From positions 1 through 38,585 of the IMG/VR virus record IMGVR_UViG_3300027759_000195: DNA of 38,585 nucleotides. One strand, 5' to 3'. Of the stretch, positions 20,767 through 34,376 are shown one piece after another. The notes beneath the pieces are model-generated. The model saw only the letters and a program-made list of their open reading frames with translations, had not been told where the DNA came from and searched no databases. Made by a program: the position numbers and the translations under genes. Each line of letters begins with the position of its first letter. The first letter of the stretch is position 1. The stretch is from a virus.

Positions 20767-21024
20767 TCAATTTTTTGATAACCCCTTGTCATTAATCAAA
20801 ACATCTTTTTGGTCTAACCCATTAATTTCAACCTGATTTTTGTCCGTTATCAAAATTCCAACTTCGCCACATTTTGACACGTACTGATCATAATCTGTAA
20901 AAGTTTGAATAAACTTATGCCCAGTAGTCATGCATTGGTCGGAATCAACAACCCCGTGCGAAAATATCTCCCCGCTGTTTGCAATAAACCAAGTTCTGAC
21001 TTTTGGATAATTAATATATTGCAT
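20767..21024 (-). CDS. Small protein after BspA-like fiber gene
   Basis: An 85-residue protein; the start at 21024 is chosen for its TAATG overlap with the fiber stop. It begins MQYINYPKVRTWFIANSGEI and includes a small beta-sheet pattern and an acidic end. This resembles short tail-fiber chaperone-like or assembly proteins encoded behind fiber genes, but there is no recognised domain. Confidence 0.6.
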   Translation of the reverse strand: MQYINYPKVRTWFIANSGEIFSHGVVDSDQCMTTGHKFIQTFTDYDQYVSKCGEVGILITDKNQVEINGLDQKDVLINDKGLSKN

Positions 21025-22157
21025 TACGGCGTCCCCCCATCTGTGATTGTCCATAGTTTAGTACCTGTTAGAATTGCACGCCCTGTAGTGGGTGCCCCAG
21101 CACTGTAATGAGCCGTCCCAGCACTAAATGTAACATTACTTTGTATAGTTGCCTGTGACGGCCAGCCAGTTACGGAATCGAGCAACTTATTGTAATTTGT
21201 TATTGTAAATCCTGATGAATTGAACATAGAGGTCGCATTTGTTAATGCAGCAATGCTCCAAGTGGAAACATCTTGATTGAACGCTGTGGCTAAATTAAAC
21301 ATTCCCCCCATGTTAGTCACTTTTGACGTATTGAATGACAATGGTTGATTAAATGACGTAGCGCTGTTGAACATATTTGACAATGAAGTGACGTTTGCCG
21401 TGTTAAAATTTGAAACGGGTTGATTAAAATTTGTGCAAGCTGAGAACATATTGAGCATAGTGGTAGCTAGAGCAGTACTGAAATTTGAAACGGGTTGATT
21501 AAAATTTGTGCAAGTTGCGAACATTGCCTGAAAATTGGTAGCTAGAGCAGTACTGAAATTTGAAACGGGTTGATTAAAATTTGTGCAATCTTGGAACATT
21601 GCCTGAAAAGTGGTAACTAGAGCAGTGTTTAAACTTGATACGGATTGGTTAAAGTTAGTGCACCCTCGAAACAGTTCGGCCATATTCGTAACTTCAGTAC
21701 AATTATAAAAATTAATAGTTTGATTGAGTGATGTGCACGATCTAAATGCACTAGTTAAAACAACGGTACCTCCAAGATTTAAGCCATCGGTTGCCGTAAT
21801 TGTTAAATTTGAGCATCCGAAAAAATAAAGGCCTTGATTTTTACCTAATCTAAAATCAGGACCCCATTTTTCAACAGTAAGTATTTTTAATCGATCTCCA
21901 CCATTATTAAACACAAGACCTTCAAATTTCCCGTAGATCTTGATTGTATAAGTGCCTGTAGATGCGTATACATGGGTCCAATTTGCGTCGTTATACGTCG
22001 TCATGTAGTTGCTAGACCCGTCGCCCCAATCCACTGTGCAGGCATACGTTCCAGCACTATGGGTGGGGATTACAATTGTTTTTGTTGCAGACCCTGCGTT
22101 TTCTGTATTCCAGGTAGAAATAAACGCCCGATCTTGTAGTAGTCCCGCTGTTATCAT
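21024..22157 (-). CDS. Fiber/receptor-binding protein with BspA-like (DUF285) repeats
   Basis: A 377-residue protein. Residues about 20-80 (CTVDWGDGSSNYMTTYNDAN, HVYASTGTYTIKIYG) form a PKD-like beta-sandwich with the WGDGS and GTYTI marks. Then come six to eight 25-residue units with MF/F..CTNFNQPVSNFSTA, the DUF285/BspA leucine-rich type known from bacterial surface adhesins. Three units around 21411-21580 are nearly identical in DNA with a 75-bp period. The end (GWPSQATIQSNVTFSAGTAH) is a closing motif of such proteins. Likely a surface adhesin used for host binding. Confidence 0.8.
   Translation of the reverse strand: MITAGLLQDRAFISTWNTENAGSATKTIVIPTHSAGTYACTVDWGDGSSNYMTTYNDANWTHVYASTGTYTIKIYGKFEGLVFNNGGDRLKILTVEKWGPDFRLGKNQGLYFFGCSNLTITATDGLNLGGTVVLTSAFRSCTSLNQTINFYNCTEVTNMAELFRGCTNFNQSVSSLNTALVTTFQAMFQDCTNFNQPVSNFSTALATNFQAMFATCTNFNQPVSNFSTALATTMLNMFSACTNFNQPVSNFNTANVTSLSNMFNSATSFNQPLSFNTSKVTNMGGMFNLATAFNQDVSTWSIAALTNATSMFNSSGFTITNYNKLLDSVTGWPSQATIQSNVTFSAGTAHYSAGAPTTGRAILTGTKLWTITDGGTP
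21405..21655 (-). repeat. 75-bp tandem repeat inside the BspA-like gene
   Basis: The string gaaacgggttgattaaaatt recurs at 21412, 21487 and 21562 with an exact 75-bp spacing, and a more diverged unit follows. The near identity of the units suggests recent expansion. Confidence 0.85.
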
Positions 22158-28830: not shown

Positions 28831-29387
<557 letters not shown>

Positions 29388-31452: not shown

Positions 31453-31625
31453 CCCGCCCCCTATTCGCCCTTATATCCCTTCTTCTATTCCTCGTAGCCG
31501 CTCATACCACGTCACTCGTAAATGACGACTACGCGTACAGATGGGGGGCTAGTATCGTGCTTGTGGTATTGGCTTTGAGTTTCGCGATTAATGCGATAAT
31601 AACAAATGATCAAGGAGACAATTAA
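31449..31625 (+). CDS. Second two-span small membrane protein
   Basis: A 58-residue protein with spans at about 4-19 (PLFALISLLLFLVAAH) and 33-51 (GASIVLVVLALSFAINAI). The topology is the same as the protein at 30226. The 3' end reads into the ribosome-binding site of the Cys-triplet gene. Confidence 0.65.
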   Translation: MTRPLFALISLLLFLVAAHTTSLVNDDYAYRWGASIVLVVLALSFAINAIITNDQGDN

Positions 31626-31626
31626 A

Positions 31627-32376
31627 ATGAAAACCGAGATATTTAGTAGTTACGACGAATTTTTGAACAGACCCGACAAACAAACAAACGGTGTGTCCGT
31701 TGGGTTTTCAAAAAAGTACCCGGGTTTTACTTTGGATAACGAGACAAATTCAGGTTGTTGGGATTGCAGCGATTGCAGCGATTGCCGCGATTGCCGCGAT
31801 TGCCGCGATTGTTGGGATTGCTACGATTGCAGCGATTGTTGGGATTGCAACGGTTGCAGCGGTTGCGGCGGTTGCGGCGATTGCTACGATTGCCGCGGTT
31901 GCCGCGATTGCCGCGGTTGCAGCGATTGCCGCGATTGCCGCGGTTGCCGCGATTGCCACGGTTGCGGCGGTTGCGGCGATTGTTGGGAGTGCTACGATTG
32001 CCGCGGTTGCAACGGTTGCCGCGATTGCCGCGATTGCCGCGATTGCCGCGGTCAATCAAACGAGCCACTTGTTATCCCAAAAATTGAAAATATTCATCAG
32101 AAATTATTAGAAGCTTGCAGTGGCGATAATTCGCTTGATATGTCCAATTGGCACACGTGCGACACAACACACTGCCGGGCTGGCTGGATAGTAACGCTGG
32201 CCGGAGAGGATGGTAAGAAATTAGAGGGTCATCTAGGTACTCCGTTAGCGGCCAATAAAATATATAAAGCAAGCTCAGATATAAAGGTCGATTGGGCACT
32301 AAGATTTTACGAGTCAGACGATGTTGCTATGGCTGACATAAAGCGTTGCGCGGAATTAGAAAAAGAAGGTAATTAA
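31627..32376 (+). CDS. Cys-triplet repeat protein (33 consecutive C-x-D/G units) with conserved C-terminal domain
   Basis: A 249-residue protein, start chosen behind aaggagacaattaaaATG. Residues 44-142 are 33 consecutive triplets with Cys at every third position and Asp or Gly at the third place (CWD, CSD, CRD, CYD, CGG, CWE and so on). The array is followed by a separate domain from about 152, including MSNWHTCDTTHCRAGWIVTL and GTPLAANKIY. I know that C-terminal domain from other phage proteins, where repeats precede it. Every-third-residue cysteine would put thiols on one face of a regular helix or solenoid, fit for metal binding or redox, but no structure is known to me. The next genes encode other repeat proteins. 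Confidence 0.75.
   Translation: MKTEIFSSYDEFLNRPDKQTNGVSVGFSKKYPGFTLDNETNSGCWDCSDCSDCRDCRDCRDCWDCYDCSDCWDCNGCSGCGGCGDCYDCRGCRDCRGCSDCRDCRGCRDCHGCGGCGDCWECYDCRGCNGCRDCRDCRDCRGQSNEPLVIPKIENIHQKLLEACSGDNSLDMSNWHTCDTTHCRAGWIVTLAGEDGKKLEGHLGTPLAANKIYKASSDIKVDWALRFYESDDVAMADIKRCAELEKEGN
31756..32052 (+). repeat. 9-bp tandem repeat encoding 33 Cys-x-x triplets
   Basis: Thirty-three in-phase 9-bp units of the type tgc-cgc-gat. All frames of both strands remain largely open through it because of the period. Confidence 0.95.
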
Positions 32377-32377
32377 A

Positions 32378-32896
32378 ATGGCTAACGATAAATACGAATT
32401 AATAGGAGAGCCGAGCATTGACGGACTTCGCCGAATCCGAGCTCTCCGCGATATCGGTAACTCAGTTAAGGCCGGAGACGTAGGCGGGTGGGTTGAGTCG
32501 GATAAAATTTTATCATTTCTCGGCGATGCGTGGATCTCTGGTAATGCGAAGGTCTCTGGTAATGCGAAGGTCTCCGGCAATGCGTGGATCTCTGGTAATG
32601 CGAAGGTCTCTGGTAATGCGAACGTCTCCGGCAATGCGTGGATCTCTGGTGCTGCGAAGGTCTCCGGCGATTCGTGGATCTCCGATAATGCGCATGTCTT
32701 TGGTGATTCGCAAGTCTCCGGTTATGCGCAGGTCTCCGGTACTTCGTGGATCTTCGGTAATGCGATGGTCTCCGATAATGCGCGTATCTACTTTGATGCG
32801 CAAGTTTCCGGTAATGCGGTGGTGACCGGTAATGCGCGTATCTACGGTAATTGGGTGGTGAACGGTAATGCACGTCTCGGAGGAAGTTTAATATGA
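32378..32896 (+). CDS. Left-handed beta-helix (hexapeptide repeat) protein, paralogue 1
   Basis: A 172-residue protein. Residues 1-48 are a non-repeat cap (KYELIGEPSIDGLRRIRALR, DVGGWVES) typical of phage YdcK-like proteins. From about 49 on come hexapeptides of the form NA-x-V-S-G (AWISGNAKVSGNAKVSGNA), some 19 units. This is the LbH pattern of acyltransferases, but no active-site loop or conserved His is seen, so a structural or binding role is more likely. First of three tandem copies; the first 120 bp are identical to copy 2. Confidence 0.82.
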   Translation: MANDKYELIGEPSIDGLRRIRALRDIGNSVKAGDVGGWVESDKILSFLGDAWISGNAKVSGNAKVSGNAWISGNAKVSGNANVSGNAWISGAAKVSGDSWISDNAHVFGDSQVSGYAQVSGTSWIFGNAMVSDNARIYFDAQVSGNAVVTGNARIYGNWVVNGNARLGGSLI

Positions 32897-34366
32897 TCAA
32901 GGAGACAGTTAAAATGGTTAACGATAAATACGAATTAATAGGAGAGCCGAGCATTGACGGACTTCGCCGAATCCGAGCTCTCCGCGATATCGGTAACTCA
33001 GTTAAGGCCGGAGACGTAGGCGGGTGGGTTGAGTCGGAGAAAAATTTATCACATCTCGGCGATTCGTGGATCTCCGGTGATGTGCGTGTCTACGATAATG
33101 TGCGTGTCTACGGTAATGCGTGGATCTCCGGTAATGCGATGCTTTTCGGTAATGCGATGGTTTACGGTGATGCGCAGGTCTCCGGTTATGCGCAGATCTT
33201 TGATGATGTTCAGATCTTTGATGATGCGCATGTCACCGGTAATGCGATTGTCTCCGGTAATGCGACGGTTTTCGGTGATGCGCTGGTTTGCAGTAATGCG
33301 CGTGTCACCGATAATGCGCAGGTCACCGATAATGCGCGTATCTACTTTGATGCGCAAGTTTCCGGTAATGCGCGGGTCTCCGGTTTTGCAAAGGTCGAAG
33401 ATAATGCGACGGTCTCCGGTAATGCGTGGGTCTTTGGTGATGCGCGTGTCTCCGGTTATGCGCGTGTCTCCGGTAATACGCGTGTCTCCGGTAATGCGCA
33501 GGTCTTTGGTGATTCGCAAGTCTCCGGTTATGCGCACGTCTCCGGTAATTCGCAGGTCTTTGGTGATGCGCGTGTCTCCATTTTTGAAGAAGGTTTAATA
33601 TGAGAAGGACAATTAAAATGGCTAACGATAAATACGAATTAATAGGAGATCCAACCATTGACGGAATTCACCGAATCCGAGCTCTCCGCGATATCGGTGA
33701 CTCAGTTAAAGCCGGAGACGTAGGGGGGTGGGTTGAGTCGGATAAAAACTTATCATGCCTCGGCGATGCGTGGATCTCTGGTAATGCGATGGTTTTCGGT
33801 GATTCGGTGGTGAACGGTAATGCACGTGTCTCCGATAGTGCGATGGTCTCCGGTAATGCACGTGTCTCCGGTAATGCGCAGATCGAAGATAGCGCGATGC
33901 TCTCCGGTAATGCGCGGGTCTCCGCTAATGCGCGTGTCACCGGTAATCCGTTTGTCTCCGGTGATTCGTGGATCTTCGATAATGCGACGGTCTCCGGTAA
34001 TGCCCAGGTCTTTGGTGATTCGCAAGTCTCCGGTAATGCGCAGGTCTCCGGTAATGCGCGTGTCACCGGTAATGCGATGGTCTCCGGTAATGCGCGTGTC
34101 ACCGGTAATCCGTTTGTCTCCGGTGATTCGTGGATCTTCGATAATGCGACGGTCTCCGGTAATGCCCAGGTCTTTGGTGATTCGCAAGTCTCCGGTAATG
34201 CCCAGGTCTTTGGTGATTCGCAAGTCTCCGGTAATGCGCAGGTCTCCGGTAATGCGAAGGTTTTCGGTAATGCGATGGTTTTCGGTGATGCGGTGGTGAC
34301 CGGCGATGCGATGGTTTTCGGTGATGCGGTGGTGACCGGCGATGCGGTGGTGACCGGTGATTCAGA
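32520..34366 (+). repeat. 18-bp periodic repeat region of three beta-helix genes
   Basis: Hexapeptide-coding 18-bp units with core ggtctccggtaatgcg run through three genes, interrupted by the caps. Includes 120-bp and 114-bp identical segments between and within genes. Confidence 0.9.
32914..33603 (+). CDS. Left-handed beta-helix protein, paralogue 2
   Basis: A 229-residue protein with the same cap (120 bp identical, 32919-33038 against 32383-32502) and about 29 hexapeptides with more varied positions (VYGNA, IFDDV, VTDNA, VCSNA). The start at 32914 is chosen behind aaggagacagttaaaATG over an ATG 21 bp upstream. It also shares the stretch encoding ARIYFDAQVSGNA with paralogue 1, a sign of exchange between copies. 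Confidence 0.82.
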   Translation: MVNDKYELIGEPSIDGLRRIRALRDIGNSVKAGDVGGWVESEKNLSHLGDSWISGDVRVYDNVRVYGNAWISGNAMLFGNAMVYGDAQVSGYAQIFDDVQIFDDAHVTGNAIVSGNATVFGDALVCSNARVTDNAQVTDNARIYFDAQVSGNARVSGFAKVEDNATVSGNAWVFGDARVSGYARVSGNTRVSGNAQVFGDSQVSGYAHVSGNSQVFGDARVSIFEEGLI

Positions 34367-34376
34367 GGAGGTTTAA
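33618..34376 (+). CDS. Left-handed beta-helix protein, paralogue 3
   Basis: A 252-residue protein with a slightly diverged cap (KYELIGDPTIDGIHRIRALR) and about 33 hexapeptides. It contains a perfect 114-bp direct repeat (33926-34039 and 34088-34201, offset 162 bp, nine hexapeptides). The start at 33618 is behind aaggacaattaaaATG. It is the longest of the three, as if grown by internal duplication. Confidence 0.82.
   Translation: MANDKYELIGDPTIDGIHRIRALRDIGDSVKAGDVGGWVESDKNLSCLGDAWISGNAMVFGDSVVNGNARVSDSAMVSGNARVSGNAQIEDSAMLSGNARVSANARVTGNPFVSGDSWIFDNATVSGNAQVFGDSQVSGNAQVSGNARVTGNAMVSGNARVTGNPFVSGDSWIFDNATVSGNAQVFGDSQVSGNAQVFGDSQVSGNAQVSGNAKVFGNAMVFGDAVVTGDAMVFGDAVVTGDAVVTGDSEEV

Follow-up and report, generated by a model that had tools for sequence, protein, structure and literature searches.

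Cysteine-triplet arrays in phage proteins with exchangeable repeat fronts: a putative capped rod

A 249-residue protein encoded by a lake phage contains 33 consecutive triplets that each begin with cysteine, and the protein has hundreds of phage relatives. The gene lies on the plus strand (31627-32376) of a tailed-phage contig from IMG/VR, all 38,585 nucleotides (38.6 kb) of which were analysed and are referred to here as the window. Rather than an accident of sequence, the array probably represents a repeat rod of a new kind. The reading that we prefer, with a probability of about 0.45, is that of a three-part capped rod in which a core of inward-facing cysteines, set in triplets that run in-out-out, would serve, during the early phase of infection, as a scaffold or a surface for binding. 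Attribution of the protein to a phage in an initial annotation of this DNA was borne out.

Translation of the reading frame gave three segments, all on the plus strand. The N-terminal domain, residues 1-43 (MKTEIFSSYDEFL...NGVS...NETNSG; 31627-31755), is conserved in more than 30 phage relatives. The 33 C-x-(D/G/E) triplets follow as residues 44-142 (31756-32052), with cysteines at residues 44, 47 and so on to 140 (CWDCSDCSD...CRDCRG); the count, coordinates and register given for this array by the initial annotation were exact. Residues 143-249 (32053-32373) comprise a linker and a helical C-terminal domain, the conserved part of which (residues 151-245) carries a WHxCxTTHCRAGW motif. The third place of the triplet had been described as fixed at Asp or Gly; this was so in 32 of the 33 triplets (Asp 21, Gly 11), the other being a Glu (CWE), and it is a local flavour only, the family having Asp, Gly, Arg, Tyr or Asn in this place with Cys alone near invariant. 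The middle place was occupied by Arg (14), Ser (5), Trp (4), Gly (4), Tyr (3), Asn (2) and His (1), whereas Ser predominates here in the family (79%). The array contained no Thr, its cysteine spacing was strictly CxxC with no CxC, and its net charge was −8 over 99 residues (22 acidic, 14 Arg).

The protein-coding frame proved to be real. A AAGGAGAC ribosome site lies upstream of the ATG and is a good site for the 249-residue ORF, while the N- and C-terminal domains are conserved in-frame in other phages. A frame artefact was ruled out by these conserved flanks together with recovery of the same register from different DNA units. At the DNA level the window array is a 9-nt tandem repeat (TRF, 81% matches), and ten TGY codons at 9-nt spacing were matched 24 times in the window and never in 100 shuffles. 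The alternative reading frames across the array are likewise open. TGT was found only ahead of TGG (Trp) which, in combination with the tandem 9-nt DNA, indicates that the units in the window spread by recent duplication. Taken alone, the window array is insufficient to prove selection, and it is the relatives that supply this proof.

Relatives were obtained by several routes. A search of viral contigs detected 15 relatives with a single-protein query and 431 with an alignment query, of which the best 80 of the 431 were kept, and a search of a genome collection detected 34. A scan for TGY at every 9 nt gave at least 120 stretches; among the matches listed, about 50 loci were real genes as judged by their flanks, the rest being artefacts or unclear. 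Raw DNA pattern searches also collect artefacts, such as antisense collagen-like repeats (CSPCSP, CTPCTP), and these were excluded by eye. The register was counted in 72 distinct relatives that had been retrieved via the C-terminal domain and not via cysteine. Cys occupied 2274 of 2286 register positions in this set and 3505 of 3513 positions in 116 distinct arrays. The replacements were mainly Leu, Ser, Ala and Phe, with no His, Asp or Glu, and were few in number (8 in the strictest set). Array length ranged from 12 to 59 triplets in the 72 relatives, some of these arrays being clipped by contig ends, and the genome set extended the range down to 5 and 9 triplets (loci L143 and L145); length is free from 5 to about 59 triplets, a relative at L243 having 20.

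An alternative to selection on the protein is that 9-nt repeat expansion within a real gene produced the array as a by-product, yielding a disordered spacer in which Cys as such is of no use. The tandem repeat in the DNA, the recent duplication evident from the tie between TGT and TGG and the disorder of the array in AlphaFold models are all in keeping with this explanation. Against it, many DNA units gave one protein register, with 36 distinct commonest 9-mers across the 72 relatives, and synonymous change was apparent at both Cys (TGC 1918 versus TGT 356) and Ser (TCN 1616 versus AGY 214). Use of TGT in the arrays correlated with T-ending codons in the flanks (rho 0.33, p 0.004). As differing DNA units and synonymous Cys and Ser codons accompany the same register, the constraint acts on the protein: to the extent that sequence data can demonstrate this, many phages maintain a Cys at every third residue at this level. 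The idea that the array is a mere product of the DNA repeat, which the initial annotation had raised as a refutation, was contradicted by those relatives that keep the Cys register with different DNA units, and an origin as a useless by-product is regarded as improbable.

Evidence for a rod came from the domains that flank the array. It had been proposed that the C-terminal domain is known from other phages and that the repeat fronts attached to it are exchangeable, and both proposals gained support. The domain is present in many phages, residues 151-245 of the window protein matching the profile of PHROG 31265 (E 1.4e-27), and it lies behind Cys-triplet, pentapeptide, LRR-like and Ala-rich fronts. 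Pentapeptide-array proteins share it with the window protein at 53% identity over 98 residues and match PHROG 31265 over nearly its full length; the WHxCxTTHCRAGW domain ends such proteins at loci L013-L017, L153-L157 and others, from both phages and bacterial contigs, and the pentapeptide fronts were confirmed by PF00805 (E 1e-24 and 2e-40). The same domain was observed behind an LRR-like front (L158) and an Ala/Trp-rich front (L171), indicating that more than three kinds of front exist.

Other Cys-triplet proteins terminate in a second C-terminal domain (IGSR...CGCF), as do YdcK-type left-handed beta-helix proteins. This IGSR cap is contained in PHROG 7964, the family of the genes downstream of the array gene in the window, and lies behind left-handed beta-helix arrays at loci L303 and L322; the versions from Cys-triplet and left-handed-helix proteins were matched with an HHalign probability of 97.9% and a BLASTP E of 3e-11. 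The same arrangement of the IGSR cap recurs in the cultured Bacteroides phage BF766P1. Two separate caps, hence, are each joined at one and the same position to arrays of either type, Cys-triplet or established beta-solenoid. This sharing of caps with beta-solenoid arrays is the strongest evidence for the Cys-triplet array being a solenoid-like rod, and the sharing of caps with fronts that are free of Cys arrays argues against a function that depends on thiols alone.

Structure prediction was informative for the caps. The C-terminal domain was modelled by AlphaFold2 as helical with a pLDDT of mostly ∼90, and the N-terminal domain of a relative was modelled as a small alpha/beta unit with a pLDDT of ∼80. 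The array itself had a pLDDT of ∼30 to 35 in two runs, with alignments of 21 and of 32 sequences. AlphaFold may fail on repeats that depend on metals or disulfides, so the low pLDDT does not refute an ordered array. The first whole model gave no useful match to BFVD or the PDB with Foldseek, and its best Z score with VIA-align was 3.0, in the C-terminal domain region and below a meaningful level. The residues in the x position of 139 arrays exhibited no clear higher-order period, apart from a weak excess in the range of 3 to 7 triplets (ratio of 1.10 or less); an earlier autocorrelation of 79 arrays had given a weak hint at 4 to 5 triplets that was not sharper in the 139, and no coil length is therefore indicated. 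The triplet periodicity would fit a right-handed beta-helix with in-out-out triplets, the fold of insect antifreeze proteins, but the array model lacks confidence and the x positions carry no coil-length signal. The solenoid or rod of the initial annotation stands as the best inference, although structure prediction gave no confident fold for it.

In the capped rod that we favour, the N-cap would be followed by the Cys-triplet rod and then by the helical C-cap. By analogy with the solved in-out-out helix of the beetle antifreeze protein, Cys would fill a very narrow core, and Ser, Arg or Trp together with Asp, Gly, Asn, Arg or Tyr would form the outer surface and the turns. The rod may fix the spacing between the caps or present a long repetitive surface, and the capped rod might act on a factor of the host or of the phage in the early phase of infection. 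With Cys facing inward, the thiols would be structural (packed, disulfide-joined or metal-joined) and not a store. Replacement of Cys by Leu, Ser, Ala or Phe would be easier to reconcile with a packed core than with metal ligands, although this argument is thin because the replacements are few. Arrays of 5 to 9 triplets (L143 and L145) speak against a rod, as they would give barely one or two coils. The early timing is suggested by the neighbours of the relatives: 107 proteins were compared, and the named families among the 25 commonest of 100 PHROG families were nearly all of DNA metabolism (exonucleases, Erf annealing proteins, DNA polymerases, methyltransferases, primase, helicase, Gam and ParB, with one lipoprotein). 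These 25 included no family of head or tail proteins, and the relatives tended to lie among genes for replication and recombination. The Cys-triplet gene may, on this evidence, be an early gene in a DNA-metabolism region. A more radical form of the capped rod, with a new architecture in which a one-dimensional rod has a continuous inward line of thiols closed by metal ions or disulfides and serves, in the modular early protein of very many phages, in place of pentapeptide and left-handed-helix rods, is conceivable but doubtful.

Several other functions could be imagined for a ladder of cysteines, among them the metal store and the redox sink suggested by the initial annotation. CxxC and CxxCxxC spacings are typical of zinc and Fe-S sites, and the array could form a metal-thiolate chain, flexible without metal, in which neighbouring CxxC pairs wrap Zn, Fe, Cu or Fe-S as a store or as a metal-stabilised rod. 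Such a chain would account for the near absence of Cys replacement, for the failure of AlphaFold to yield a metal-free fold and, having no fixed turn, for the lack of a coil period. The same caps function, however, with pentapeptide and left-handed-helix fronts that lack a Cys array, Cys was replaced by Leu, Ser, Ala or Phe and not by His or Asp, and no metal-handling family was detected among the 25 commonest of the 100 neighbour families; a metal chain is rather unlikely. The 33 thiols, in an array devoid of an obvious hydrophobic core and with a Cys spacing that is kept while other residues drift, could alternatively act as a buffer or sink against an oxidative or electrophilic host defence. 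For this many cysteines would suffice, an exact three-residue register at more than 99% of positions would not be required and caps would not be expected to be held in common with Cys-free fronts, making a redox role very improbable. DNA mimicry, as by the pentapeptide gyrase inhibitors or Ocr, would be consistent with the inferred rod shape, Asp in 21 of the 33 triplets, exchange with pentapeptide fronts and the location of relatives near DNA-metabolism genes. The slight net charge of the window array and the values in the 72 relatives, which average −0.14 per triplet (range, −0.65 to +0.27), are near neutral and disfavour the strong form of this suggestion from the initial annotation; mimicry of DNA seems most unlikely.

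The protein was compared with established families. The array matched PHROG 15341 (E 1.2e-18), as did the N-cap plus array of Cys-triplet relatives, and neither this family nor PHROG 31265 has an assigned function in PHROGs. No match to the window protein was obtained up to an E of 1 with Pfam, including the pentapeptide, ferredoxin and zinc-finger families, or with the PADLOC anti-phage defence profiles, and none was obtained with NCBIfam; no description of Cys-triplet arrays in phages was found in the open-access literature. As unnamed PHROG clusters, the sequences of the family are already known, and Pfam, NCBIfam and PADLOC all lack the repeat. From its sequence the protein would be a capped repeat rod of a kind outside the pentapeptide, YdcK and antifreeze families, the defining repeats of which were looked for in it and not found. 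Metallothioneins are Cys-rich proteins with CxC motifs, and the strict CxxC spacing of the window array excluded membership of this class. Pentapeptide repeat proteins (PF00805), defined by at least 8 contiguous A(D/N)LXX-type pentapeptides (PMC8145042), form a four-sided right-handed beta-helix and have an array in the same place before the same C-terminal domain, but the window array has a period of three and not five residues, with Cys in place of the A(D/N)LXX core. The IGSR cap is common to Cys-triplet relatives and YdcK-type left-handed beta-helix phage proteins (PF18836, phrog_7964/5070); the latter differ in having a hexapeptide-type repeat with 18-nt periodicity and no Cys array, and the window protein bears the other C-cap and was not matched by this family.

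The best PDB sequence match, a weak one (phmmer E 0.026), was to the insect antifreeze protein TmAFP (1EZG). TmAFP is a right-handed beta-helix with side chains arranged in-out-out, the four inward residues of each 12-residue coil being C, S, C and A (PMC8038014). Every third residue thus faces the core, Cys making up half of such residues; placing Cys at all of the inward positions would read CxxCxxCxxCxx. The TmAFP repeat (TCTxSxNCxxAx), however, has 12 residues with ice-binding ranks of Thr, whereas in the window array all inward places would be Cys. Membership of the antifreeze family and a function in ice binding were rejected on the absence of Thr and the wrong repeat, and the resemblance is likely to be an analogy only. 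A Cys-triplet gene without the C-terminal domain in Vibrio phage 1.238.A (L002, 4001-4375) is annotated as 'insect antifreeze protein', which is very likely a mislabel derived from Cys spacing. This cultured phage, the host of which is Vibrio breoganii, carries NVP1238A_68 as its Cys-triplet gene.

If the capped-rod reading is correct, phages possess a widespread class of modular capped rods in which three chemically different repeats serve one place, one of them built on cysteine alone and outside the coverage of Pfam. A three-residue repeat of very simple sequence would join the known solenoids and, if the thiols carry metal, the result would be an unusual metal rod. Front swaps on constant caps would offer a direct way of asking what the rod does, and the reading would help to make sense of the hundreds of phage genes annotated as 'hypothetical', some of which carry an erroneous insect antifreeze label.

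Two to four paralogous Cys-triplet genes were present per phage in several cases, often close together (L029, L057, L094, L106, L028, L045 and L205). The copy in Flavobacterium phage FL-1 (L001, 3986-4817) shifts frame within its C-terminal domain, through either sequencing error or decay, and its annotation comprises two short hypothetical proteins; other phages have intact copies. At L058 and L136 the triplets take another form (CQTCQGCQSC) and are preceded by a long N-terminal region of a different type (MASQNEIVWKKDLTDIQSGLE...).

In the window, the Cys-triplet gene sits within a plus-strand series of small genes, and an exonuclease, a DNA polymerase, a helicase, a primase/helicase, a major head protein and a large terminase are also encoded. 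Directly downstream on the plus strand are three tandem YdcK-like genes (32378-34376): the first (32378-32896) matched left-handed beta-helix families in Pfam and PHROGs (phrog_5070/7964), and the second (32893-33603) and third (33600-34376) matched PF18836. All three match PF18836, and their first ∼45 residues are nearly identical, a recent gene multiplication. A 24-nt leader with a ribosome site (ATGATCAAGGAGACAATTAAAATG; 31606-31629, plus strand) precedes the array gene and recurs at 32893-32916, before the second YdcK-like gene, the copies differing by one base (2 matches, 0 expected by chance). YdcK-like genes near a Cys-triplet gene were otherwise detected at a single further locus (L222), and a general linkage was rejected as a rule. 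Other repeats in the window were a (GT)22 run at 28869-28912, a 28-nt repeat of 2.6 copies at 29091-29164 and a 75-nt repeat of 3.4 copies at 21406-21662, inside a minus-strand ORF (21024-22157). Both contig ends (1-99 and 38464-38585) carry the same 12-nt tandem repeat (AGTCGCAGCACC), which suggests that the genome is circular or terminally repeated and was collapsed within a repeat.
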